From assembly GCA_028282325.1 (NCBI GenBank), contig JANQID010000083.1, forward strand, positions 1 to 64,000: a stretch of DNA of 64,000 nucleotides, given 5' to 3'. How positions within the stretch are numbered: position 1 is the first letter of the stretch; each line of letters opens with the position of its first letter. The notes under the pieces are model-generated. The model was not told the origin of the DNA, made no database searches, and saw only the letters and a program-made list of their open reading frames with translations. The DNA comes from Chloroflexaceae bacterium (GTDB lineage Bacteria > Chloroflexota > Chloroflexia > Chloroflexales > Chloroflexaceae). Both the position numbers and the translations under genes were made by a program. This document shows positions 29,420 to 41,917 of the stretch, piece by piece.

Positions 29420-29554
29420 AGAGCGCAAGGTCATCGTCCATTTCTGATCGTTTGGGCAGAGCACGAGAAAACCGTTCCGGCGACGCAGTGTACGATGTTC
29501 GCTCCGCCTGAGCGATCTGGATCGCGCATTTTCAGAGAGAGGAGATATCGCGAG

Positions 29555-30097
29555 ATGCCCCGTGAATTCATCGTGTACGCATGCCCGATCGGCCCGTTGG
29601 CGCAACGAATCGACGGTTTCTACGAACGGACGCTCCGCAAAGTCGGTCACAATCGCGCTCATGACTATATGGCACACTGCACGCTGACCGGTTTCTTTCA
29701 CGACGAGGTCGAGGCTATTCCAAGCTATGTTAACGCGCTCGACGAAGCACTGGCAAGGGCGCGTTCGACCCAGCCCACGCCAGTGGTGCGCATCCTGGGT
29801 GTGGAGTTGCAGGAGAACTTCCACGGCTTGCTGCTCGACTCACCGTGGCTCAAAGCGTTGACCGCCGACTTTGCCGCCGCCGTCGATTCCCCCTCGCGCC
29901 GCGATGACCTGCGGCTGAAGGATTGGCTACACCTCAGTCTGGCCTACGATTTCCCGCCGGAGCAAGGACCAAAGCTGGCCCGGATTGCCAAAGAGATGAT
30001 CGACATACACTTGCCGGTGCATTGGGATTTGCGCTTCTACGAGCGCCATGTCAAAGATGGCTGGATCAGCCATGTCGTCTGGCCGCTCGACTCGTAG
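29555..30097 (+). CDS. 2H (LigT-fold) phosphoesterase
   Basis: A 180-residue protein of the 2H phosphoesterase superfamily. The two catalytic HxTx/HxSx motifs are HCTLTGFF (about residues 42-49) and LHLSLAYDF (about 123-131). Superfamily members open cyclic nucleotide-type phosphates; the plant CPDase branch acts on ADP-ribose 1'',2''-cyclic phosphate. It is convergent with the C-P lyase operon, which lacks phnP, the usual gene for opening ribose 1,2-cyclic phosphate, so a replacement role is conceivable. Start at MPREFIVYA, ATG 29555, with GAGGAG upstream; a 20-codon extension is ignored. Confidence 0.8.
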   Translation: MPREFIVYACPIGPLAQRIDGFYERTLRKVGHNRAHDYMAHCTLTGFFHDEVEAIPSYVNALDEALARARSTQPTPVVRILGVELQENFHGLLLDSPWLKALTADFAAAVDSPSRRDDLRLKDWLHLSLAYDFPPEQGPKLARIAKEMIDIHLPVHWDLRFYERHVKDGWISHVVWPLDS

Positions 30098-30181: not shown

Positions 30182-30202
30182 GATCCGGCTAGAGGCCGGA
30201 TC
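30182..30202. terminator. convergent hairpin at the end of the phn operon
   Basis: A perfect 8-pair GC-rich stem (30182-30189 with 30195-30202) with a 5-base loop. Its last base is shared with the stop codon of the acetyltransferase gene, and it lies between the convergent 2H phosphoesterase and phn units. No T tract. Confidence 0.45.
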
Positions 30203-30861
30203 TACGACGGGCCATACTTTTCAATAAACGTGTTGATGTCGCGCAGATCCTCGAAGCGTTCCTCCAGCATCTGACGATCCCATTCCCACCAGGCAATCGC
30301 CAGCAGTTGCGCGCTAATCTCTGGTGCAAAGCGCATACGGAGCAGGCGGGCCGGAACGCCAACCACAATCGTATAGGGATCCACGTCTTTCGTCACCACC
30401 GCGCCTGCGCCGACCACTGCGCCCGTGCCGATGCGCACGCCGGGCATAATAACAGCCCCGTGGCCGATCCAAACATCGTGGCCAACAACGCAGGCCGCCG
30501 AGCGACGCCAATCGAAGAAGGCCTCATCGTCTGTGTCGGCAAAACCATATTGGGCGCGCCGATAGGTCATATGGTGCTGAGTCACCCGCTCCATCGGATG
30601 GTTGCCCGGATTAATCCGCACGTGAGATGCGATCGAGCAGAATTTGCCGACCTGGGTATAGATGATTGACACGTCGCCGGCGGCGTAGCTATAGTCATCA
30701 AACGACGACTCGACGATTGTCGAATGAGCGCCGATCTCGGTCCAACCGCCGATCTGGCTGGCGTAAACAATGGAAGTCGGGTGGATGGTCGGGCGCTCGC
30801 TCAGGCGCGTGGGCTGGCGTGAGCGCAATGTTTCGGGAAATACATCGATCTGATACAACAT
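30202..30861 (-). CDS. phosphonate-operon hexapeptide-repeat acyltransferase
   Basis: A 219-residue left-handed beta-helix acyltransferase of the kind found in C-P lyase operons (TIGR03308-like, xenobiotic/chloramphenicol acetyltransferase fold). Hexapeptide repeats are visible as [33 protein letters not shown] and the C-terminal [20 protein letters not shown]. The catalytic-type His is in [10 protein letters not shown]. Its substrate is not settled for the family; acetylation of an aminophosphonate or pathway intermediate is the usual suggestion. Last gene of the phn operon, 17 bases after phnM. Confidence 0.85.
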
Positions 30862-30878
30862 GCAGAACCTCTATCACC

Positions 30879-32060
30879 CTACAACCACGCGGATCGGCGC
30901 GCCATCATACCATCCCAGTAGATCGGCGCGCCGTGGCGTAACGTGCCGCGCACACGCGGGCGTCCGTCGGTTTCGATCAGCGCCAGGTCGGCGCTCTTGC
31001 CAACGGAGATGCGGCCCCGATCATGCAAATTCAACGCATCGGCGACGTTCTGGCTGACCAGATGCGCCGCCTCGTGCAACGGCAATACGCCGGCATTGAC
31101 CAGGATGAACACCGACTGAAACAGCCCGGCAGGATAGTAGTCGGCGGCAAGAATATCGACGACGCCGGCCGCGATCGCCTCCGTCGCGCTCAAGTTGCCG
31201 GAATGCGAACCGCTCCGCAGCACATTTGGCGCTCCCATAACAACGTGCATTCCCCGTCGCCGCGCTTCCTGCGCCGCCTCCAGCGTTACCGGGAATTCGC
31301 AGATCGTCGCGCCCAGGCTGGCCACCAGATCCACCTTCTCGATCGTATCGTCGTCGTGCGAAGCAATTGTGAGGCCCTGACCTACAGCGAGCGTCGCGAT
31401 GTCGCGGGCGAGTTCCCAATTCGACTGCGCATCGTCGGCCTTCTGCATCCGCTCGGCCAGCTCGGCCTCGACATAGGCCCGATCAACTTTGCGCCACTTG
31501 GCGATGAAGGTGATGTAGTGTTCAATGTCGCGGTATTGCCCCTGACCGGGGGTGTGATCCATCAACGAGATTATGTGTAACTGATCGGCGTTAAGCATCT
31601 CGACCAAGAAGGGTGCGATGCTCGGCGTCGAGACCTCGAAGCGGGCATGAACCAGGAAATCGATCAGCAGGCGGTCGCGCAGCGCGTTGATCGTCGTGAT
31701 CATATCGCGCACGATCGTGCGGGAGCGCACGCTATCTTCCCGCTCATTTTCATAGAATGATAGCGCGGCGTAGGCCGTCGTGACGCCTGCACCGGCCAGG
31801 CGCTTATCAAGCTCGAACAGCGCCATATCGGTCGGGAAATGCGTGCTCGGTCGCGGTTCGATCTCGCGTTCGAGCATGTCGCCGTGCATATCGATGACGC
31901 CGGGGAGCGCCGTCAGACCGCAGCAATCAACCCACGCCGCTTCCTCGCGCCGCGGCGCCGGCCCTTCGACAATCTCGGCGATGCGTCCGTCGCTCAGGCG
32001 CAGCGAACCGCGTTCAAGCGTTTGATCGGGCAAGACGACGCGCAGGTCACTCAGCCACAT
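30879..32060 (-). CDS. phnM: alpha-D-ribose 1-methylphosphonate 5-triphosphate diphosphatase
   Basis: PhnM, 393 residues, an amidohydrolase-fold enzyme that removes pyrophosphate from ribose-phosphonate triphosphate to give the monophosphate substrate of PhnJ. The metal-binding HxD-type motif is PGVIDMHGDMLERE. Further family segments are IISLMDHTPGQGQYRD, GLTIASHDDDT and MGAPNVLRSGSHSGNLSA. The product then goes to PhnJ. Start ATG 32058-32060 with GAGGAG nine bases upstream; it overlaps the end of phnL by 14 bases, so translation is coupled. Confidence 0.95.
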   Translation of the reverse strand: MWLSDLRVVLPDQTLERGSLRLSDGRIAEIVEGPAPRREEAAWVDCCGLTALPGVIDMHGDMLEREIEPRPSTHFPTDMALFELDKRLAGAGVTTAYAALSFYENEREDSVRSRTIVRDMITTINALRDRLLIDFLVHARFEVSTPSIAPFLVEMLNADQLHIISLMDHTPGQGQYRDIEHYITFIAKWRKVDRAYVEAELAERMQKADDAQSNWELARDIATLAVGQGLTIASHDDDTIEKVDLVASLGATICEFPVTLEAAQEARRRGMHVVMGAPNVLRSGSHSGNLSATEAIAAGVVDILAADYYPAGLFQSVFILVNAGVLPLHEAAHLVSQNVADALNLHDRGRISVGKSADLALIETDGRPRVRGTLRHGAPIYWDGMMARRSAWL

Positions 32061-32775
32061 TGGCGTACTCCTCACCATTGCGCCGGGATCCACTGTCTGG
32101 CGGCGCGAGATAGAGTTCATTGTCGATCAGCCCACGAACATCTTCCGGATGATGAAATACGCCGATCATCGCGACGCCGCGCGCTTTCAACTGCCCAAGC
32201 CGCTCAACCAGCGCCGCGCGAGCCTCGGCATCAAGCGAGGCGGTCGGTTCGTCGAGCAACAGCAGGCGGCGCGGCGCGATCAATGCGCGGGCCAGGTTGA
32301 CCTTCTGCTGCTCGCCGCCGGAAAAGGTCGCCGGATAGGCCGACCAGATCTCCGGCTTAAGGCCGAAAGCGGCCAGCCATTCGCGAGCTTCGCGTTGCGC
32401 GGTTTCCCAATCGTGGCCCAGCAACAGCAACGGCTCAGCAACCAGATCCAGCGCACTGACACGCGGACGCGGGCGCAGAAATTGCGAGACGTTGCCGATT
32501 TCGCTCCGCCGCAGCCACATAATGTCCACATCGGCGGCCCGCGCCAGGTCGATTGCACCGGCAGTCGAGGTGAACATCGCTTGCCCCGCCGATGGCACAT
32601 AGGCGCGATACAGACAACGCAGCAAGGTCGATTTGCCGACGCCGTTCGGCCCGCGCACGAGTAGAAACTCGCCCGCGTGCAGCGTGAACGAAACCCAGTC
32701 GAACGCAGCGACTTCACGCTCGATCTGGTGTATATGAAAGCGTTTGCTCAACTCATGGACGTGGAGAATGGTCAT
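32047..32775 (-). CDS. phnL: C-P lyase ABC-type ATPase PhnL
   Basis: PhnL, 242 residues, an ABC ATPase without a membrane partner that associates with the C-P lyase complex. Walker A is VRGPNGVGKSTLLRCLY, the signature is FSGGEQQKVNLARALI, Walker B is LLLLDEPTASLD and the H-loop is VFHHPED. PhnI with PhnG, PhnH and PhnL is needed to load phosphonate onto a nucleoside triphosphate. Start MTILHVHELS at ATG 32773-32775; a 49-codon open extension upstream is outside the family. It is 97 bases after phnK, the widest gap in the phnG-phnM stretch. Confidence 0.94.
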   Translation of the reverse strand: MTILHVHELSKRFHIHQIEREVAAFDWVSFTLHAGEFLLVRGPNGVGKSTLLRCLYRAYVPSAGQAMFTSTAGAIDLARAADVDIMWLRRSEIGNVSQFLRPRPRVSALDLVAEPLLLLGHDWETAQREAREWLAAFGLKPEIWSAYPATFSGGEQQKVNLARALIAPRRLLLLDEPTASLDAEARAALVERLGQLKARGVAMIGVFHHPEDVRGLIDNELYLAPPDSGSRRNGEEYANVAE

Positions 32776-32872
32776 TCCTATGCGCCTTGCAAATCTGTCA
32801 GATGCGACAAAACGTAAAAACGTGCGCCTGGTCCGGCACGCCGAACATGACAGGTCGCGAGCTTGGCCTCCC

Positions 32873-33679
32873 CTATAACTTCGCATGCACCAGTTGCTGG
32901 GTGTACGGATGTTGCGGATCATCGAGCACCTGGTCGGTCAGACCCTGCTCGACCACGCACCCGCGACGCATCACCATCACCCGATCGGCAAGCGTGCGGA
33001 TCACGCCCAGGTCGTGCGAGACAATCACCGTGGCGATGCGCAATTCACGCCGCAGCCGGATCAGCGTGTCGAGCACCAGCGCCTGAACCGACACATCCAG
33101 CCCGGTGGTCGGCTCGTCGAGCAGCAGCGCCGCCGGTTTGAGCGCAATCGCCTTGGCCAGTTGCACCCGCTGTTGCATACCGCCGGAGAGGCGGATCGGC
33201 AGGTCGTCCATTCGATCCAGCGGGAACTCTGAGACGGCGAGCGATTCGCGAGCGGTGCGGCGCAACGTGGCGAACGTGCGCTCGCCGGCCATAATCAGGC
33301 GTTCGGCGACATTGCCGCTGCTGGTCGTGCGCATGCGCAAACCCAGGTGCGGGTTCTGATAGACAATGCCGATCTGGTTGATGCGCACCTCGCGGCGGTG
33401 ATAGCGATCCAGATCAAATAGATTTACCCCATCATACTCCGGCAGATCGAGATAATACTCACCCCCGTCGGTAGCCTCTTCCAGGTTGAGCAGCCGCAGC
33501 ACGGTGGACTTGCCCGAACCCGACTCGCCGACGATGCCCAGCATCTCGCCGGGATAGACTGTCACGTCAACGCCATCGACGGCAGTGAGGCGACCATAGC
33601 GCTTGACCAGGCCGCGCGCCTGGAGCAGCGGGCGGGTTATCACCAGGCGAGGTGCGTCAAACATAGTTGCGGCCATCAT
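32873..33679 (-). CDS. phnK: C-P lyase ABC-type ATPase PhnK
   Basis: PhnK, 268 residues, an ABC ATPase related to oligopeptide-transport ATPases that docks on the PhnJ side of the C-P lyase core. Walker A GIVGESGSGKSTVLRLL, signature LSGGMQQRVQLAKAIA, Walker B ALLLDEPTTGLD and H-loop VSHDLGV are all intact, so ATP hydrolysis is expected. Three tandem start codons (GTG-ATG-ATG from 33682) follow ACGAGGG; the first ATG is used. Only a few bases separate it from phnJ. Confidence 0.95.
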   Translation of the reverse strand: MMAATMFDAPRLVITRPLLQARGLVKRYGRLTAVDGVDVTVYPGEMLGIVGESGSGKSTVLRLLNLEEATDGGEYYLDLPEYDGVNLFDLDRYHRREVRINQIGIVYQNPHLGLRMRTTSSGNVAERLIMAGERTFATLRRTARESLAVSEFPLDRMDDLPIRLSGGMQQRVQLAKAIALKPAALLLDEPTTGLDVSVQALVLDTLIRLRRELRIATVIVSHDLGVIRTLADRVMVMRRGCVVEQGLTDQVLDDPQHPYTQQLVHAKL

Positions 33680-33688
33680 CACCCTCGT

Positions 33689-34648
33689 TTACAGTTCAAT
33701 GTCTTGGCCATCGCGCGACTTCAGATAGCCCGGCTTATAGAACTCGCCGTTCGAGTCGTAATACGTCGGGCCAATTTTCACCGTCTCGCCGCGTAACCGT
33801 TTGATCAGCTTCTCGGCATAGCCGGTATCAGACAGGCGGAACAGGGACGTGCCATCGGGTTGGGGCACTTCATCCATATATTTGTGCGCCGCGCCGGTAT
33901 TTGCACAAACCCGATCCGCCTGACTCTCGACCCGAAAGTGGACATCGGCGAACTCGATCGGGTAAACGTCGGTGTACGGCGGAACGGCATAGAGGCGCTT
34001 CTCGCGCCCGGCGGAAAGCAGCGTCAGGTGAGGCGCCTGGTGCAACGTCGGCGTATCCCAGCGCGGAATCGGACTAGGGCTCATCAGATAACGCTGGTGA
34101 ACCATCACCGGATAGCTGGCGCCGCCAATAAACTGCTTGAAACGCACAAGCTGCTCGTAGAGGCTGAGCCACATCAGTGCATAGTCGGCGTCGGCGTGCA
34201 TTTCGCGCGCCCGCGACATATTCGGCTCGACGTGGCGCAGCGGTTCGGGATCGGGCACCTGCAACACCAGCGCCTGACGTTCACGCAGACGTTCCTCCGG
34301 GACGCGGTGACGGCTCTGAATAATCGTCGCCCGGCAGGCGTCGGTGGTCGTCGCAACGCCGGTCATTCGCGCGATAAAGCGCCGCAGGTTCGCCGCGTTC
34401 ACCGAATCGTCGGCGCCCTGGTCAATCACCTTGAGCACGTCGTCCGGGCCGGCAAGGCTCAACGTAACTTGCAAGCCGCCGGTGCCCCACCCGCGTGCGA
34501 TGGGCAATTCGCGGCTGGCGTAGGTAACCTGATAGCCTGGAATGGCAATCGCCTTGAGCATCCGCCGCCGTAATTCACGCTTCGCGAAGGCATCCAGAAA
34601 ACCATAGCTATAGTCTTGACGCGGCGCGGCCAGTTCGGCAAGTTTCAC
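33689..34648 (-). CDS. phnJ: C-P lyase catalytic subunit PhnJ, lacking three of four signature cysteines
   Basis: PhnJ, 319 residues (281 in E. coli), cleaves the C-P bond of 5-phosphoribosyl-1-phosphonate, in known forms by SAM radical chemistry. Conserved features are AIPGYQV with Gly38 (E. coli Gly32 radical site), YASRELPIARGWGTGG, KVIDQGADD, SRHRVPE with His114 (E. coli His108), and AGREKRLYAVPP. E. coli uses Cys241/244/266 for 4Fe-4S and Cys272 as thiyl radical. Here the segments read VCANTGAAHKYMDE and FRLSDTGYAEKL: Cys248 is kept, but Thr251, Leu272 and Ala278 replace the other three. The only other Cys is Cys105. A 40-residue C-terminal extension follows. Start GTG overlaps phnI (GTGA). 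Confidence 0.93.
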   Translation of the reverse strand: MKLAELAAPRQDYSYGFLDAFAKRELRRRMLKAIAIPGYQVTYASRELPIARGWGTGGLQVTLSLAGPDDVLKVIDQGADDSVNAANLRRFIARMTGVATTTDACRATIIQSRHRVPEERLRERQALVLQVPDPEPLRHVEPNMSRAREMHADADYALMWLSLYEQLVRFKQFIGGASYPVMVHQRYLMSPSPIPRWDTPTLHQAPHLTLLSAGREKRLYAVPPYTDVYPIEFADVHFRVESQADRVCANTGAAHKYMDEVPQPDGTSLFRLSDTGYAEKLIKRLRGETVKIGPTYYDSNGEFYKPGYLKSRDGQDIEL

Positions 34649-35778
34649 GAGGGTGCTCCTTGCTGCTCTGAAGCTTCCGCTTTCTGCTCGTCCAGCACCC
34701 GCCGCAGCGCTTCCAGGCTGCTGCTGAAAGTCACGTAGTGCGGGAGCTTATAGTGGATGCAGAAACCCGACGCTTCCACCGGCTCGGTGTGATAGAGCAC
34801 GAACTCTTCTGTGTGAGCCGGGTGAGCGTCCGGGCTATCCATTTCCAGGTCGAGCATCGAGCCGGCGATGGTCTTGACCTCGTTCCAGCCCAGCGTTGCG
34901 GTAAAACCCAACGCCAGCTTCGCCTGACCTTCGGCGAATGTGTTGACCACTTCGGCCTGGCTGACTCGTACACGGCCCGCGCTGAACACGACACCGGTGA
35001 TCGGATGGCGCAAGTTAACATCAGCATAACCCAGGCGCACCTCGTTCACGGTCGGGTGGATGAGGCCATAGCCGCGCATGCTGGCGTAGCCGAGCGACAA
35101 CACGCCGCCGGTGTCAGCGCGAGCCAGCGACTGCAAGCGATGTGCACGCGGCGCAGGGAAGCTAATTGGATCACGGGTGACGTCGGGCAATTCCGCCGGA
35201 TCAACCGGATCGCGTTCAGGCAGCGGGTCAAGCAAGCCGTTGAGCCGGTGCCATGCAGCGACGGGCGGGTAGGTCGCCGGGGCGGGTTCATCGGCCTGGA
35301 CAAGCTCGGCGTCAGTTCCAGTCTCGCGACTGTTATGGGATTGCGCCGCCGCGTCGGTTGCGCCTGTCGCTCCCCGGTCATCCAGCACATCGAGCCGCAA
35401 CAGACGATGACTGTAATCCAGCGTCGGTCCGAGCATCTGGCCGCCGGGAATGTCTTTGAATGCCGCCGAGATGCGCCGCGTAGTCAACATCTGTTCTTGG
35501 GCGATGGTTTCGGCGTAGGCCAGGCGCGGCTGAGTGGAGCGATAGGCACGCAACAACAGCACTGCCTCGTAGAGATCGCCGCCCGCCTGCGCAATTGCCA
35601 GCGCCGTCAGTTCGGGCGCATAGAGCGAGCCTTCGCCCATCACACGATCAACCAGGTAAGGCAGGCTCTGCTCAATGGCGCGCACGGTCGCGGCTGTGAT
35701 CGGGCCGTTGAGCGCGTGGTATAACAATGTCGCCTGCCGGGTCGCCTGTTCGCCTCCTCGCGCAGCAACGTAGGCCAT
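34645..35778 (-). CDS. phnI: C-P lyase subunit PhnI
   Basis: PhnI, 377 residues, nucleosidase-like subunit of the C-P lyase core that, with PhnG, PhnH and PhnL, swaps the base of a nucleoside triphosphate for phosphonate. Family segments are MAYVAARGGEQA, MLTTRRISAAFKDIPGGQML, SLGYASMRGYGLIHPTVNEV and FVLYHTEPVEASGFCIHYKLPHYV. His342 and His347 match the E. coli His328/His333 metal pair at the PhnI-PhnJ active site. Cys340, the only cysteine, sits two residues before that pair. An acidic, low-complexity insert (about 155-190) is unusual. Its ATG shares a base with the phnH stop. Confidence 0.95.
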   Translation of the reverse strand: MAYVAARGGEQATRQATLLYHALNGPITAATVRAIEQSLPYLVDRVMGEGSLYAPELTALAIAQAGGDLYEAVLLLRAYRSTQPRLAYAETIAQEQMLTTRRISAAFKDIPGGQMLGPTLDYSHRLLRLDVLDDRGATGATDAAAQSHNSRETGTDAELVQADEPAPATYPPVAAWHRLNGLLDPLPERDPVDPAELPDVTRDPISFPAPRAHRLQSLARADTGGVLSLGYASMRGYGLIHPTVNEVRLGYADVNLRHPITGVVFSAGRVRVSQAEVVNTFAEGQAKLALGFTATLGWNEVKTIAGSMLDLEMDSPDAHPAHTEEFVLYHTEPVEASGFCIHYKLPHYVTFSSSLEALRRVLDEQKAEASEQQGAPS

Positions 35779-36326
35779 CAGAACACCTCCACCTGCGTTG
35801 TACGGGGCAATCCCACTATCCAGTCGTTCATCACCAGAAACACATCCCAACCCAGCGGATAGCGGATCATCTCGGCGCGCAACGCCCAGAACGCAGTCGG
35901 CAGCGCGCCCACAGTCAGATGAATGGCGCCATCGACGCCTGGCCCGCGTAGCCGTAGCCGCTGGCCCTCGTCGAAGTTGCACCCTAACACCAGCGTCGCC
36001 GACGCATCGGGATATGCATAGGTTCCGACCGGCGCCATTCGCAGCGTGACCAGATCATCTTCGCACAATGTCGGATAGAACTGATACAGCGCCGATTGCG
36101 GCGGATGCATACGTGCGCCGAGCTGCCCGATCGCGCGCGCAAACTCAGGATGCGGGGTATAGAAGCTCGTTTCCAGATCGACCAGCGCCTCGGCGACAAC
36201 CTCAAACGCCACTTGCCCGGCGGCAGGGAGAATATGAATACGCCCTGGATAGCTGAGCGACCACATCAGCGCGGTAAACGTATCGCGCATACGCGCTTCG
36301 GCGGCATTCATCGCTATTTGAACCAT
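35778..36326 (-). CDS. phnH: C-P lyase subunit PhnH
   Basis: PhnH, 182 residues, part of the PhnGHIJ core complex with a PLP-transferase-like fold but no cofactor. It begins with the typical RMRDTFTALMWSLSYPGR and has ALVDLETSFYT, GTYAYPDASATLVLG and RGPGVDG-type segments, ending near WIVGLPRTTQVEVF. The ATG shares its A with the phnG stop, and its own stop shares a base with the phnI start, so phnG-phnH-phnI-phnJ are translationally coupled. Confidence 0.94.
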   Translation of the reverse strand: MVQIAMNAAEARMRDTFTALMWSLSYPGRIHILPAAGQVAFEVVAEALVDLETSFYTPHPEFARAIGQLGARMHPPQSALYQFYPTLCEDDLVTLRMAPVGTYAYPDASATLVLGCNFDEGQRLRLRGPGVDGAIHLTVGALPTAFWALRAEMIRYPLGWDVFLVMNDWIVGLPRTTQVEVF

Positions 36327-36760
36327 CAGAACGTCTCCATCTCTACCCGCGTCGCTTCGACATAGCGCAGCAATTCACGATCCGCATCATCAAGCGCGCG
36401 AGATTGTTCCGCCACAAACGCATCGATGCGCTCGTGCGCGAGCCCGGCGGCACTGGCAGCGTCGATCAACGCGATGGCGAGCGCTTGCTCAAGGTCGCGA
36501 CCCAGACACGCCGCATAGCCCTCGCTGCCGTTTCCGATCTGCACCCGCGCCTCGGCGACCAGCGCCTCGCCCAGGTAGAAGGTCTCGCCCTTTACGGTTT
36601 CGGTCATCGGCAGCATCACCAGGCCGGTACGATTTTGGAGCACCGTGATCGTGCCCAGTTCGGGGATGAGTGCATCGGCAAACTGCTTGACCGCCTCCGC
36701 CGGGGCGCGGTTGAGCACGCTCAAATATCGGGCCTGATTCGGGTACGCATGTGTCGTCAT
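36326..36760 (-). CDS. phnG: C-P lyase subunit PhnG
   Basis: PhnG, 144 residues, smallest core subunit of C-P lyase, similar in fold to half of PhnI/PhnJ. The segments NRTGLVMLPMTETVKGETFY and GEALVAEARVQIGNGSEGYA followed by ACLGRDLEQALAIALIDAA are characteristic. No clear Shine-Dalgarno is present; a stable RNA hairpin (36776-36807) ends only about 15 bases before the ATG. This is the first enzyme gene after the transport genes. Confidence 0.93.
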   Translation of the reverse strand: MTTHAYPNQARYLSVLNRAPAEAVKQFADALIPELGTITVLQNRTGLVMLPMTETVKGETFYLGEALVAEARVQIGNGSEGYAACLGRDLEQALAIALIDAASAAGLAHERIDAFVAEQSRALDDADRELLRYVEATRVEMETF

Positions 36761-36886: not shown

Positions 36887-38002
36887 TTAACCGCCCAACT
36901 CCTTGAGATCAAGCTCCAGCAGCTTGGCGATGTCGCGCAGCGAGTTGTAGTACTGGTCGAGCGTTTCCAGGCCCAACTCACCCGATGGGTCAAGGTACCA
37001 GTGCTTGATCTGCGCGATCAGCTCCGGATTATCCTTGATCTCCAGCAGAGCCTGCTTCACAGCCGCCTTGAACGACTCGGGCAGTTCGGTGCGTGCAGCG
37101 AACGGCGTGCTAGGAATCTCGTCGGACATTGCGATGATCGCGATGTTGCCTTCGGGGCAGGCGTCGTAAACTTCCTTGATCTCCTCAGGCGTGCGGCGCT
37201 TGCCGATCTGCTCATCCGGAAAGTTGCAGAGCTCGATCTGGCCCTCGCCCTGCAAGCGGTACAGGTTGCCCTCGTAGGTCGCGCCGGCATTCGCGCTGCC
37301 GTTCCACACCGCCAGCACCGACGTCGGGTGACTGCCGGCGAAAACCGTGTTCATTTCGGCGTCCGGGTCGATGCCATTCTTGATCAGCAAGGTTTTCGGC
37401 GCCAGGTGGCCCGATGTCGAAGCCGGGTCAACAAACGTGAAGTCCTGGCCCTTCAGATCTTCGAGGGTCTCAATGCCCGAACCCTTCTTGGTGATGATCG
37501 TGCTGTAGTAGTGCGCCGGAACACCCGGGTCGTACTCCACCTTGTCGCCAGCCTCGCCGGTGTACACCGCGAGCGCCTCAGCCTGGGCCTCTTGCACGGC
37601 CAACACGTACGAGAACGGACCGACTTCCATCGCGTCCACACGGTCGGCGCGCATCGCTTCGATCACGGCGGTGTAGCTGGTGCCGGTGAAGTACTCAACC
37701 GGGATGCCCAGCTTCTCTTCCAGGTAGACGCGAATCGGCTCGTTGTTCTCCAACACGGCGTCGGCGTCGTCACCGCCGAAGAAGCCAATGGTGAACTTTT
37801 CCGGCCAATCTGAACGATCATCTGCTTCGGCAGGGGCGGCGGTCGGTTCAGCTTCGGGTGCAGCAGTCGCTTCCGCAGCCGAGGCGGCGGTCGGTTCGGC
37901 TTCCGTCGGAGCTGGCTGGCTGCCGCATCCGACAACCGCGATCGCTCCAATGAGCATGGCGACGATGATGTACAACATCGTCTGGTTACGCAACGCGTTC
38001 AT
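36887..38002 (-). CDS. phnD: phosphonate ABC transporter substrate-binding lipoprotein
   Basis: PhnD, 371 residues, captures phosphonates outside the membrane and hands them to PhnE. A lipoprotein signal (LIGAIAVVGCGS) puts the lipid Cys at residue 26. A spacer rich in Ala, Glu, Pro and Thr (about 28-62) tethers the domain. The binding domain has KFTIGFFGGDDADAVLENN, DRVDAMEVGPFSYVLAV, FVDPASTSGHLAPKTLL and GSHPTSVLAVWNGSANAGAT, all PhnD-type. Start ATG 38000-38002 after GGAGTAAGGAAC. Confidence 0.95.
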   Translation of the reverse strand: MNALRNQTMLYIIVAMLIGAIAVVGCGSQPAPTEAEPTAASAAEATAAPEAEPTAAPAEADDRSDWPEKFTIGFFGGDDADAVLENNEPIRVYLEEKLGIPVEYFTGTSYTAVIEAMRADRVDAMEVGPFSYVLAVQEAQAEALAVYTGEAGDKVEYDPGVPAHYYSTIITKKGSGIETLEDLKGQDFTFVDPASTSGHLAPKTLLIKNGIDPDAEMNTVFAGSHPTSVLAVWNGSANAGATYEGNLYRLQGEGQIELCNFPDEQIGKRRTPEEIKEVYDACPEGNIAIIAMSDEIPSTPFAARTELPESFKAAVKQALLEIKDNPELIAQIKHWYLDPSGELGLETLDQYYNSLRDIAKLLELDLKELGG

Positions 38003-38093
38003 CTGTTCCTTACTCCTTGCATTCGGTCGGCTCTTTTCACCATCCAAACAAAGCGGACGCCTGCCGTCACGGCAGCCGAGGAGCCGTCGTTGG

Positions 38094-39005
38094 CTAGATC
38101 AGACGCTTGCGCAGAAAATCGCTGATCCGGTCAATGATCGTGACGGTGATGACGATCAGGATCAACGCGCCCATCAAATCTCGATATTGGAACAGGTTGA
38201 TATATTTCGTAATGATGAAGCCGACGCCGCCCGCGCCGACCAGACCTAGAATCGTCGCCGAACGCACGTTGTGCTCGAAGTAGAGCAGCGAATACGAAGC
38301 GGCCAGCGGCAGCGCTTGCGGCACGACGCCATAAACGAACGCCTGCATTCGGCTCGATCCGGTTGCACGCACAGCCAGCACCTGTTGCGGATCAATCGCC
38401 TCGATCGCTTCGGCATACAACTTGGCCAGCGACCCGATCGAACCGATGGCCAGCGCCATCACGCCGCCAAACGGCCCCAGACCCACTGCCGCCACGAAGA
38501 TCAACGCGAAGATAATGTCGGGAATGGCACGATTGATGTTCAACAACATGCGCGTGATCTGGTAAATCCATGGATATGGAGCGGTATTGCGCGCTGCGAG
38601 CAATGCAAAGGGGATCGAGAGTATGATCGCACCCGAGGTGCCGATAACCGCCATCTGTACCGTCTCGATGATGTACGGAACAATACCGGGGTAGGCGATC
38701 GGCAATTCCGCGCCCAGCCAGCCCTGCAAAAACGCCGGAGCTGCCCAGGCGGTCGTTTCGAGATCGAAGCGCGGCGGAAACAGGCGAACGATGAAATCGG
38801 CAATATTCGGAATGCCGGCCATAAACTCGGTCGGGCTGACATTGGTTCCTTCGATCGACCAGGCATACACCGCAATAATGACGATCACCGCCATAACCAT
38901 CTTGAGGGTGACGCGCGGCAGAGGTCGCAGCAACTCATCGCGTAACTCGGCCTGTCGTAGCGCTGCTGAATGCGCCGGAGAGGTCGCTTCAATTTCAGAC
39001 GCCAT
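38094..39005 (-). CDS. phnE: phosphonate ABC transporter permease
   Basis: PhnE, 303 residues, the transmembrane channel. A cytosolic 40-residue tail precedes a first membrane helix (MVMAVIVIIAVYAWSI). The core region has GTSGAIILSIPFALLAARNT and the EAA-type loop EAIEAIDPQQVLAVRATGSS that contacts PhnC, then LRSATILGLVGAGGVG-like NVRSATILGLVGAGGVGFII. A single permease gene implies a homodimer. It lies before phnD, giving the gene order C-E-D instead of the familiar C-D-E. Start ATG 39003-39005 with GGAG eight bases upstream. Confidence 0.95.
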   Translation of the reverse strand: MASEIEATSPAHSAALRQAELRDELLRPLPRVTLKMVMAVIVIIAVYAWSIEGTNVSPTEFMAGIPNIADFIVRLFPPRFDLETTAWAAPAFLQGWLGAELPIAYPGIVPYIIETVQMAVIGTSGAIILSIPFALLAARNTAPYPWIYQITRMLLNINRAIPDIIFALIFVAAVGLGPFGGVMALAIGSIGSLAKLYAEAIEAIDPQQVLAVRATGSSRMQAFVYGVVPQALPLAASYSLLYFEHNVRSATILGLVGAGGVGFIITKYINLFQYRDLMGALILIVITVTIIDRISDFLRKRLI

Positions 39006-39120
39006 TACACACTCCGTTTCTATCACCCAGGCGCACTTTCAGAAACTGCCTGACAATTTAATACACCAAAGACCGAATCAACCCTAGCCTTGATCTGGCC
39101 CGGCCTCATCAAACAGTCGC

Positions 39121-39906
39121 TTAGGCATACGCCGGCTGTTTAGACGGCGCCTGACTCGATAGCTTATCAAAGCGGTAGATCTGATCCAACGCAACGTCGT
39201 CAAGCTCGCTTGGCAGCCCGTTGAAGACCACCTCGCCGCGCGCAATGCCGATCACTCGATCGGCGAATGCCTTCGCCACCGGCACTTGGTGCAAATTAAT
39301 CAGCGTCAGGACATTATCCTCACGCGCCACCCGCGCCAAGTCGCCCATCACCTGCATCGACAATTCGGGATCGAGACTAGCCACCGGCTCGTCGGCCAGT
39401 AACACTTTCGGCTCCTGCGACATCGCCCGCGCGATAGCCACCCGCTGCTTCTCGCCGCCCGACAGCTTGTCGGCACGCTGATTGGCGCGTTCGAGCAAGT
39501 TGACCCGTTCCAGGTTGCGAATGGCAATCGCCCGATGACTGCGATCAAAGAAGCCTGCCAGACTACCCCAGCCGTTGGTGTAGCCAAGTCTCCCGGTGAG
39601 CACATTGGTCAGCACCGGCAACCGATCAACCAGATTGTATTCTTGCCAGATAAAGCCGATCTGGCGGCGCGTTTGATACCACTCGGCCTCGCTCTTTTGG
39701 GTGACGTCATCACCGTCCAGGATGATCTGACCGCCGGTAGGACGCTGCAAGCCGTTGATACAGCGCAGCAGCGTGGATTTGCCCGCCCCGGAACGACCGA
39801 TGATCGCAATAATCTCGCCGGCTTCCGCCGTGAAGCTCACCGAAGTGAGCGCCCGATGGCCGTTCGCGTATACCATAGACAGATTTTGTATGGTTAGTAG
39901 ACTCAT
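39121..39906 (-). CDS. phnC: phosphonate ABC transporter ATP-binding protein
   Basis: PhnC, 261 residues, the ATPase that powers phosphonate import. Walker A is IIGRSGAGKSTLLRCINGL, the signature LSGGEKQRVAIARAMS, Walker B VLLADEPVASLDP and the H-loop INLHQVPVA (His after the strand). IGFIWQEYNLVDRLPVLTNV is typical of PhnC. First gene of the operon, with a structured leader (39935-39960) and a Pho-box-like promoter upstream. Confidence 0.95.
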   Translation of the reverse strand: MSLLTIQNLSMVYANGHRALTSVSFTAEAGEIIAIIGRSGAGKSTLLRCINGLQRPTGGQIILDGDDVTQKSEAEWYQTRRQIGFIWQEYNLVDRLPVLTNVLTGRLGYTNGWGSLAGFFDRSHRAIAIRNLERVNLLERANQRADKLSGGEKQRVAIARAMSQEPKVLLADEPVASLDPELSMQVMGDLARVAREDNVLTLINLHQVPVAKAFADRVIGIARGEVVFNGLPSELDDVALDQIYRFDKLSSQAPSKQPAYA

Positions 39907-40214: not shown

Positions 40215-41093
40215 GTGGATCAGGGTGGATCGGGCGACCTGACAATCGTTGCCGAGGGCGTACTCGCCCGGCTGCGTTCCGTCTACGAATCGCTCTCGGA
40301 AGCTGAACAGCGTGTGGCGGCATTCATCGCCGACGCGCCCGATCAGATCGTCTACTTGCCGGTAAAAGCGCTCGCCGAGCGCATTGGCGTGAGTGAAGCC
40401 ACGGTCATTCGTTGTTGTCGCTCACTCGGCTATCGGGGTCTGCGCGACCTCAAGCTCGCCCTCGCCGCCGAAACCGTCACGCCGATCCAGGTTACGCGTG
40501 AGCAGGTTGCACCGACCGACAGCGTGGCCGAGATCACGCGCAAGATCCTGCACTCTGACATCCAGGCGATTGCAGATACGCTGGCGGTCATCGATCCCGA
40601 CGCGCTGGAGCAGGCGGTCGCCGCCATGCTGACGGCCTCCAAAATCGAGTTCTATGGCATCGGCAGCTCGATCCCGGTCGCTATGGACGCGGCCTATCGC
40701 TTTCTACGTATAGGCGTACCGTCCGCCGTTGTGACCGATCCGTATATGCAAATGATCGCGGCGGCGCAACTTCCCTCCGACGCAGTGGCATTCGCGATTT
40801 CGCACAGCGGCCACTCGACCGACATCATCAACGCGTTGCGCGCGGCGCACGACACCGGAGCCACACGCATCCTGTTGACCAGCCACGCCAACGCCCCGCT
40901 CAACAGCTACGCCGATATACGCCTAGTAACAGCCGCCCGCGCAACAATGATGCTGCATGGCGAGACGCTCGCGAGCCGCATCGCGCATATGAGCGTCATC
41001 GATGCGTTGAACGTCGCGGTATCGGTGCGACAGCTCGACAAAACCCTCGACGTTATGACCCGAGCAAGCGTGTTCATCTCGGAGCGCTTCTAA
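40215..41093 (+). CDS. MurR/RpiR-family transcriptional regulator (HTH + SIS)
   Basis: 292 residues. The N-terminal HTH_6 domain (about 1-80) shows LSEAEQRVAAFIADAPDQIV and ALAERIGVSEATVIRCCRSL. The SIS sugar-phosphate-binding domain (about 110-255) shows KIEFYGIGSSIPVAMDAAYR and DAVAFAISHSGHSTDIINAL. RpiR proteins respond to phosphosugars; the C-P lyase pathway makes phosphorylated riboses, so such an intermediate may be the ligand (inference). Divergent from phnC, replacing the GntR-type PhnF seen elsewhere. GTG start with AGAGGAGG upstream. The stop overlaps the convergent epimerase gene by 4 bases. Confidence 0.88.
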   Translation: MDQGGSGDLTIVAEGVLARLRSVYESLSEAEQRVAAFIADAPDQIVYLPVKALAERIGVSEATVIRCCRSLGYRGLRDLKLALAAETVTPIQVTREQVAPTDSVAEITRKILHSDIQAIADTLAVIDPDALEQAVAAMLTASKIEFYGIGSSIPVAMDAAYRFLRIGVPSAVVTDPYMQMIAAAQLPSDAVAFAISHSGHSTDIINALRAAHDTGATRILLTSHANAPLNSYADIRLVTAARATMMLHGETLASRIAHMSVIDALNVAVSVRQLDKTLDVMTRASVFISERF

Positions 41094-41917
41094 CGCGCCA
41101 ACTCGTGCTCAGCCAGCCATGCCGCCGCCGCCGGAATCTTGGCATAGTCGCGCAGTTCCAAGATCAAGCGCGGGCGTTGCTTCAACTCGCCCAGCGCCTC
41201 GAACAGTGCATACCAGTTGATGTTGCCTTCGCCCGGCGCCCAGTGGCGATCAAGCTGACCGTCGCTGTCTTGCAAGTGCAGATGGCCCAGTAACGCCCCC
41301 GCCTCGCACACCCACTGATCGGGCGTCGGACCGCCGATGCGATGGCCGATGAAGGCATGGCCAATGTCCAGGCTCATACGCACGTAGGCCGATTCGAACG
41401 AGCGCACCAGGGCGAGCAGCGGCGCTGGGTGGGTATCCTGGATCGTCTCGATCACCAGCGTACATTTCGCCTGCTCAGCCATCGGCAGAAATGCCTCAAT
41501 CGTCTCGCGCGCAGCGTCAAACTCGAACGTGCGCCCGGCCGCGATCGCGTGGGCGAGCTGGGGATGACCGAAGAACATAAATGGGCTGTGGATGACCATA
41601 TGGCTCGCGCCGAGGGCCGCGCCAAACTCCAGCCCCTGACGCATTCGCTCGACAACCAGCGCGCGCACTTTCGGATCGACCGCCGCCAGCGTGAGACCGA
41701 TGAACGGCCCGTGGATCCCCAGACGCCCCTGATAGCCGTCGAGCACATCGCGCGCCAGGCGCACTTGAGACCGCCAATCGCTATCCAGCACATCGGGGCG
41801 GCAGGCATCCTGAATCTCCAGATCGCGCCGGGACTCGATCAACCAGTCGCGATACTTCGGCAGCAAATCCAGGGGCATCGCCGCACCGACAACCGGCAAG
41901 GCATGCTCTTCAGACAT
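41090..41917 (-). CDS. sugar-phosphate isomerase/epimerase (xylose-isomerase-like TIM barrel)
   Basis: A 275-residue AP-endonuclease-2/xylose-isomerase-like TIM barrel. Metal-site residues are in CTLVIETIQD (Glu), RMSLDIGHAFIGH (Asp, His), LGHLHLQDSDGQ (His) and PRLILELRDY (Glu). The substrate is not clear; hydroxypyruvate isomerase, myo-inosose dehydratase and ketose epimerases share the fold. It is convergent with rpiR (4-base overlap) on the outer edge of the phosphonate island. A Pho-like array lies upstream at 42085-42123, so it may answer the same signal. Confidence 0.8.
   Translation of the reverse strand: MSEEHALPVVGAAMPLDLLPKYRDWLIESRRDLEIQDACRPDVLDSDWRSQVRLARDVLDGYQGRLGIHGPFIGLTLAAVDPKVRALVVERMRQGLEFGAALGASHMVIHSPFMFFGHPQLAHAIAAGRTFEFDAARETIEAFLPMAEQAKCTLVIETIQDTHPAPLLALVRSFESAYVRMSLDIGHAFIGHRIGGPTPDQWVCEAGALLGHLHLQDSDGQLDRHWAPGEGNINWYALFEALGELKQRPRLILELRDYAKIPAAAAWLAEHELAR

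Follow-up and report, generated by a model that had tools for sequence, protein, structure and literature searches.

A conserved form of PhnJ without three of the four metal-site cysteines in complete C-P lyase operons of Chloroflexota and other bacteria

Results

The phn operon and its surroundings

The window, i.e., the whole stretch of 64,000 nucleotides that was analysed, contains a phn operon whose genes follow the order phnC, phnE, phnD, phnG, phnH, phnI, phnJ, phnK, phnL, phnM and a phosphonate-type hexapeptide transferase, the phnGHIJKLM set being complete around phnJ. The features of this region are the following:

29495–30097, forward strand: 2H-type phosphoesterase with HCTL and HLSL motifs, candidate cyclic-phosphate opener (weak PF13563 match; adjoins other Chloroflexota variant operons)
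30202–30861, reverse strand: hexapeptide acyltransferase of the phosphonate type (TIGR03308, 5.6e-86, above cut-off)
30879–32120, reverse strand: phnM, ribosyl-phosphonate triphosphate diphosphatase (NF011988, 1.6e-126, above cut-off)
32047–32922, reverse strand: phnL, ABC ATPase (TIGR02324, 3.4e-69; PDB PhnL, 6.6e-47; true start probably near 32775)
32873–33682, reverse strand: phnK, ABC ATPase (best match TIGR02323, 1.8e-64, below its cut-off)
33689–34648, reverse strand: phnJ, 319 amino acids, retaining one of the four cluster cysteines (PF06007, 1e-121; 4xb6_D, 1.8e-85; single copy in the genome)
34645–35778, reverse strand: phnI (PF05861, 1.4e-113; equivalents of His219, His328 and His333 present; Cys two residues before His328)
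35778–36326, reverse strand: phnH (PF05845, TIGR03292)
36326–36760, reverse strand: phnG (PF06754, TIGR03293)
36887–38047, reverse strand: phnD-like phosphonate-binding protein (PF12974, 4.4e-59; TIGR01098)
38094–39026, reverse strand: phnE-like permease (assigned from position and homologues in variant loci)
39121–39906, reverse strand: phnC-like ATPase (assigned from position and homologues in variant loci)
40215–41093, forward strand: RpiR-type regulator, divergent from phnC (PF01418 and SIS domain)
41090–41917, reverse strand: xylose-isomerase-like TIM barrel protein, which opens the phn operon in three relatives (PF01261, 2.6e-27)

At its start phnJ overlaps phnI by 4 bases, while 6 bases separate the phnJ stop from the first phnK start; an earlier note on this DNA had reported overlaps at both ends, and only the first of them exists. 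The ATG of phnI at 35778 overlaps the phnH stop by a single base; the mechanical open reading frame extends to 35982. The window PhnK has intact Walker A, signature and Walker B motifs and is devoid of the CxxC..CxxC insert of canonical PhnK, which is described below. As a separate observation, at a position that is a conserved His in canonical PhnM (57/61), PhnM of the window (30879–32120) and of the other clade A systems (defined below) has Ala (38/38).

PhnJ of the window and its cysteines

The product of phnJ, the subunit to which C-P bond cleavage by bacterial C-P lyase is attributed, matches the PF06007 profile with 405.6 bits (curated cut-off 25) over profile positions 2–272 of 275, is encoded between phnI and phnK, has a predicted PhnJ fold and aligns with chain 4xb6_D of E. 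coli PhnJ (E = 1.8e-85; 48–49% identity over 273 residues). In the literature, the radical-SAM PhnJ is defined by the motif CX2CX21CX5C, carried by the E. coli protein (PDB 4xb6, 7z15–7z19), together with Cys272 (PMC4389238, PMC11978286). In the window protein, Cys248, Thr251, Leu272 and Ala278 stand at the places of E. coli Cys241, Cys244, Cys266 and Cys272, respectively (C-x-x-T, L, A), so that the cluster triad is incomplete and the thiyl cysteine missing, whereas Gly32 has its counterpart in Gly38. The relevant codons are:

33905–33907, reverse strand: Cys248 (E. coli Cys241), the sole retained cluster cysteine; Cys in 55 of 56 variants
33896–33898, reverse strand: Thr251 (E. coli Cys244); Thr or Ser in 56 of 56 variants
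33833–33835, reverse strand: Leu272 (E. coli Cys266), from the 4xb6_D and family alignments
33815–33817, reverse strand: Ala278 (E. coli Cys272, proposed thiyl radical), from the 4xb6_D and family alignments
34535–34537, reverse strand: Gly38 (E. coli Gly32, proposed glycyl radical); invariant in 142 of 142 PhnJ
34307–34312, reverse strand: Arg113-His114 (E. coli Arg107-His108, which contact the cyclic-phosphate ligand according to PMC9947105); invariant in 142 of 142 PhnJ

The whole protein contains just two cysteines, Cys105 and Cys248. The 4xb6_D alignment confirms the four residues that the earlier note had read at the cysteine positions; its further statements that Cys105 is the only other cysteine and that Gly38 and His114 are retained are also correct, and the departure from the published radical mechanism which it had claimed holds, Cys244, Cys266 and Cys272 being absent. 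The window gene is thus a PhnJ by profile, fold and context, and is not a radical-SAM PhnJ as judged by the CX2CX21CX5C motif and Cys272. In addition, it possesses a conserved C-terminal tail (GxTYYD..G.F) which E. coli PhnJ does not have. No second PhnJ, canonical forms included, is present in the 4.6-Mb source genome (99.98% complete), and therefore the canonical phnJ that the earlier note had thought of as a possible objection to its reading does not exist there.

Distribution and origin of the variant

Among the Chloroflexota genomes searched, 18 others encode a PhnJ with 75–79% identity and the same loss of cysteines, whereas the canonical PhnJ proteins of this phylum (50–60% identity) all keep the four cysteines. 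A scan of GTDB with one genome per species added further Chloroflexota, about 25 Alphaproteobacteria (Devosia, Rhizobium, Paracoccus, Roseovarius and others) and a few Bacillota. Plasmid records added strains of Thermus thermophilus (including HB8 with plasmid pVV8), Mesorhizobium, Sinorhizobium and Haematobacter, the cysteine positions being read in HB8, SNM1-1 and Mesorhizobium AR07; a search of viral contigs yielded no relatives of the variant PhnJ. We call clade A the variants of Thermus, Chloroflexota and Alphaproteobacteria (besides the window, 23 other Chloroflexota genomes, T. thermophilus HB8 and about 25 Alphaproteobacteria), and clade B those found within Bacillota (Ureibacillus, Caryophanon and others). 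At least 7 genomes of the Ureibacillus family carry the clade B form in a version that retains Cys241 and Cys266. A PhnJ without the CX2CX21CX5C motif appears, provisionally, to be new to the literature: no description of such a protein was found in the open-access papers searched.

The PhnJ tree, computed with the cysteine block left out, comprises 142 sequences (86 canonical and 56 variants, i.e., 51 of clade A and 5 of clade B). Clade A forms a single group with an SH-aLRT support of 99, while the five clade B sequences fall within the canonical Bacillota. With PhnJ alone, a single origin of all variants is not rejected (p-AU 0.36). With PhnI, PhnJ, PhnK and PhnL concatenated and the cysteine regions removed, clade B lies deep inside the canonical Bacillota and one single loss behind all variants is rejected (p-AU 1e-6). 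The trees thus indicate that the variant arose at least twice, clade B independently of clade A. Neither this nor the wide occurrence of the form had been seen in the earlier note. The position of clade B implies that its form is a loss. Clade A, on the other hand, stands beside all canonical forms in an unrooted tree, and therefore the cluster-free form could even be ancestral there.

A Cys-poor form is also represented by the PhnJ of T. thermophilus HB8 pVV8, which has Cys, Thr, Val and Met at the four places, belongs to a complete phnCDE-GHIJKLM operon and groups with the window protein (SH-aLRT 99), although on a deeper branch of clade A and with Ala instead of Cys two residues before His328 of PhnI. 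The alphaproteobacterial proteins (Rhizobium, Devosia, Roseovarius and others) share the clade A losses; however, they are usually paralogues, since a verified canonical PhnJ accompanies the variant in 20 of 24 genomes. By contrast, none of the 24 Chloroflexota variant genomes and none of the five clade B genomes examined has a PhnJ besides the variant. The clade B proteins resemble that of the window in having Thr or Ser for Cys244, Met or Leu for Cys272, and Cys241 kept; they differ in their independent origin (p-AU 1e-6), in the Cys266 that some of them retain and in the retained PhnK insert. Two individual cases may be added: a Rhodobacteraceae contig in which canonical and variant phnJ lie close together (L151, 1925–2815 and a second place), and a genome of the Ureibacillus family whose phnJ is disrupted, with an internal stop codon and a change of frame (G656:C2:180998-181812).

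Sequencing error or gene decay, for which nothing but the unexpected residues speaks, has in our estimation virtually no likelihood and is rejected. The same pattern spans phyla and cultured strains, the frames are unbroken, and dN/dS between close relatives is 0.02–0.14, the former cluster block likewise showing far more synonymous than amino-acid change. Since dozens of genomes, each assembled independently, share it as a fixed pattern, the three losses are due neither to chance nor to base calling. The dN/dS values point to strong selection on the variant phnJ. The earlier note, which, citing among other things an unbroken frame, had spoken against simple decay and had asked whether a clade shares the loss, is thus upheld on both points, by an intact ORF of 319 amino acids and by a whole clade with the same loss; the sequencing error in the block that it had considered is excluded.

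Conservation of the ligand pocket and predicted structure

The variants were compared with the canonical proteins at those columns that are at least 90% conserved among the 86 canonical PhnJ sequences. Clade A departs from these columns at Cys244, Cys266 and Cys272 and, mildly, at Phe37 (Tyr) and Gly206 (Ser), and nowhere else; clade B departs at Cys244, Cys272, partly Cys266, and at the poorly kept Tyr7. The replacement of Cys244 by Thr or Ser is found in both clades and, as read from the alignment, represents a convergent pattern. Cys241 is kept in 55 of the 56 variants; in the exception, a Chloroflexota variant (L088, 10001–10924), Asp takes its place and all four cluster cysteines are gone.

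None of the variants, the window protein included, differs at Gly32, the loop 47–50, Arg107, His108 or Gln124, and PhnI retains His219, His328 and His333, so that together with PhnJ His108 the four histidines of the PhnI/PhnJ metal site are all present. In E. coli the bound 1,2-cyclic phosphate is lined by these PhnJ residues and has as its neighbour a metal coordinated by PhnI His328 and His333; about 30 Å separate the four-cysteine site from Gly32 (PMC9947105).

The AlphaFold model of the window PhnJ has a pLDDT of 89 (96–97 in the former cluster block) and superimposes on E. coli PhnJ (4xb6_D) with a Z score of 37.5 and an rmsd of 1.4–1.5 Å over residues 11–285, the former cluster region included. 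The single chain was modelled from an alignment of 83 diverse sequences with canonical relatives among them; as predicted from this input, the former cluster region appears to preserve its shape without the metal ligands.

The E. coli PhnJ is the docking subunit for PhnK (PMC9947105), and one could imagine that the variant is a catalytically dead scaffold holding PhnK and PhnL, while another enzyme breaks the C-P bond. We consider this very improbable given the full conservation of the pocket residues; moreover, no other C-P-cleaving gene is common to the variant neighbourhoods, phosphonatase PhnX occurring in three loci only.

Cysteines in the other subunits

The earlier note had offered three interpretations, namely C-P cleavage by another mechanism, a cluster gained from elsewhere, and a different reaction. 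The first and the third still stand; the second is not supported by the partner proteins. Across clade A, PhnG, PhnH, PhnI and PhnJ contain no conserved cysteine besides Cys241 of PhnJ. The Chloroflexota variants do have three new conserved cysteines, one each in PhnG, PhnH and PhnI; however, those of PhnG and PhnH are not present in the alphaproteobacterial variants, and that of PhnI, two residues before His328, is found also in canonical systems of the Desulfobacterota type and is Ala in Thermus. A general compensation, with three cysteines lost in PhnJ and three gained in PhnG, PhnH and PhnI, is rejected on these grounds. As regards the PhnI cysteine itself (window 34645–35778; L112, L113, L116, L117, L122, L123), it is present two residues ahead of the Zn ligand His328 in the variants of Chloroflexota and Alphaproteobacteria as well as in some canonical systems, and probably adjoins the active-site metal.

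A further cysteine-rich element is found in PhnK. Canonical PhnK carries, in 60 of 62 cases (e.g., L125, L129, L112, L069), an N-terminal insert of about 30 residues with the pattern CxxC..CxxC before Walker A, which is likely a second metal site of C-P lyase. The insert is lost in 45 of 46 clade A proteins and kept in clade B, and E. coli-like PhnK (L154) does not have it. As a substitute cluster for the window gene it is rejected, clade A having lost it even though clade B keeps it.

These data bear on the possibility that SAM-radical chemistry is kept and that a partner subunit, a canonical PhnJ of the same cell or a separate radical-SAM activase loading Gly32 provides the cluster or the radical in trans. 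The invariance of Gly32, the PhnK insert of clade B and the clade-specific cysteines of the Chloroflexota PhnG, PhnH and PhnI would be compatible with such a supply, but the patchy occurrence of these cysteines, the loss of the insert in clade A and the lack of a canonical PhnJ in the Chloroflexota variant genomes argue against it. Furthermore, clustering of the neighbour genes reveals no activase-like family, nor any other alternative radical source, among the families shared by the variant neighbourhoods, and the Gly32 stretch may be structurally constrained. Overall, we hold a supply in trans to be quite unlikely.

Genes associated with the variant operons

Most variant operons are accompanied by phnCDE-type transporters and PhnM. 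Near several of them lie enzymes for the cyclic phosphate expected from C-P cleavage: the Mesorhizobium variant operon has DUF1045 and PhnN beside it, three clade B loci and L066 encode PhnPP-like PHP proteins, and, by a weak assignment, a 2H phosphoesterase adjoins the Chloroflexota variant operons including that of the window. The 2H and TIM-barrel neighbours are candidate enzymes. As for regulation, the variant operon of the alphaproteobacterium Maritimibacter has a perfect Pho box upstream, with weaker boxes at the same place in some relatives; the best match at the window operon (11/14) is reached by about 5% of shuffles and is not convincing. Regulators of the LacI or RpiR type are present at some variant operons.

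Several neighbours are related to sugars. The xylose-isomerase-like TIM barrel protein (window 41090–41917; L048, L049, L063, L164) is tied to clade A operons, heading the operon in three relatives and lying near the Thermus operon; it may act on the sugar product. In haloarchaeal phn operons, an annotated sugar phosphate isomerase/epimerase follows phnM. Carbohydrate ABC permeases are located near several clade A operons (L164, 14037–18816; L165; L060; L090; L102; L106; L111) and not near the canonical ones of our set, and a YmdB-like metallophosphoesterase also occurs in the vicinity of the Thermus operon. The permeases and the metallophosphoesterase are a possible hint of a sugar- or glycerol-linked substrate.

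Such a change of substrate or reaction is the main rival to a working C-P lyase. The complex would have been repurposed: PhnGHI would make the ribosyl ester and PhnJ would bind it without cleaving a C-P bond, serving another step or another class of substrates (e.g., phosphate esters or sugar-linked phosphonates). A different reaction stays conceivable because most alphaproteobacterial genomes encode a canonical PhnJ along with the variant; the carbohydrate permeases or TIM-barrel sugar-phosphate genes near some variant operons, which do not cluster with the canonical operons of the set, and the LacI- or RpiR-type regulators are in line with it. On the other hand, the substrate pocket, Gly32 and the metal-site histidines are unchanged, phnCDE and phnM are retained, enzymes for cyclic phosphate lie nearby in several lineages, and in the Chloroflexota and Bacillota variant genomes no other PhnJ is available. 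All in all, we regard repurposing as a minority prospect that deserves some weight.

Discussion

Sequence comparison shows that the window encodes a complete PhnGHIJKLM C-P lyase system with a conserved form of PhnJ in which three of the four cysteines of the Fe-S/Zn site are missing and the ligand pocket is kept. We think it rather probable that this is a working C-P lyase complex, which would still cleave the C-P bond without a PhnJ-borne [4Fe-4S] cluster, SAM and the Cys272 thiyl. This explanation is favoured because the ligand pocket and the PhnI histidines are invariant and cyclic-phosphate enzymes lie nearby. The clade-wide pattern, the low dN/dS, the variant as sole PhnJ of the Chloroflexota and clade B genomes, the perfect Pho box in Maritimibacter and the fit of the model to E. 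coli PhnJ also speak for it. What weakens it is that 20 of the 24 alphaproteobacterial genomes encode a canonical PhnJ as well, an unexpected arrangement if the two proteins had exactly the same role, and that no alternative radical source was found next to the operon. In addition, a C272A PhnJ is reportedly inactive in vitro, and this counts against the variant as a C-P lyase. The accepted mechanism, which requires both the cluster and Cys272 (PMC9947105, PMC11978286), counts in the same direction.

If the variant is a working C-P lyase, its PhnJ would form the same assembly with PhnGHI and PhnKL as the E. coli protein and would bind the ribosyl phosphonate that PhnGHI makes and PhnM trims; the C-P bond would still be broken, with the 1,2-cyclic phosphate as the product. 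The reaction could not, therefore, start from a PhnJ-bound [4Fe-4S] cluster, SAM and the Cys272 thiyl. It would need to be driven at the PhnI/PhnJ metal site (PhnI His328 and His333, PhnJ His108), or by a radical that originates at another place and resides on the retained Gly32, with a cluster-independent role for the retained Cys241.

A more far-reaching proposal would extend this to the whole family: in any C-P lyase, the four-cysteine site would be a structural or regulatory metal site rather than the catalytic radical centre, and cleavage would take place at the PhnI/PhnJ histidine metal site. The suggestion arises because the cluster-free forms conserve everything except those cysteines, and the description of the four-cysteine site as coordinating zinc in solved structures has been raised in its favour; nevertheless, we consider it tentative and on the whole unlikely. 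The alternatives are that the accepted mechanism does not hold for every C-P lyase or that the variant systems do something different.

C-P lyase is a main route by which bacteria use phosphonates, and it gives rise to methane in oxygenated water. Its mechanism is openly called unresolved, the proposed cluster being about 30 Å from the radical glycine and the ligand being bound at a separate, histidine-based metal site (PMC9947105). A natural and widespread form without the cluster cysteines, present also in the tractable T. thermophilus HB8, makes this puzzle directly testable. Finally, counts of phnJ in metagenomes, when taken as methane-producing capacity, mix two kinds of PhnJ.
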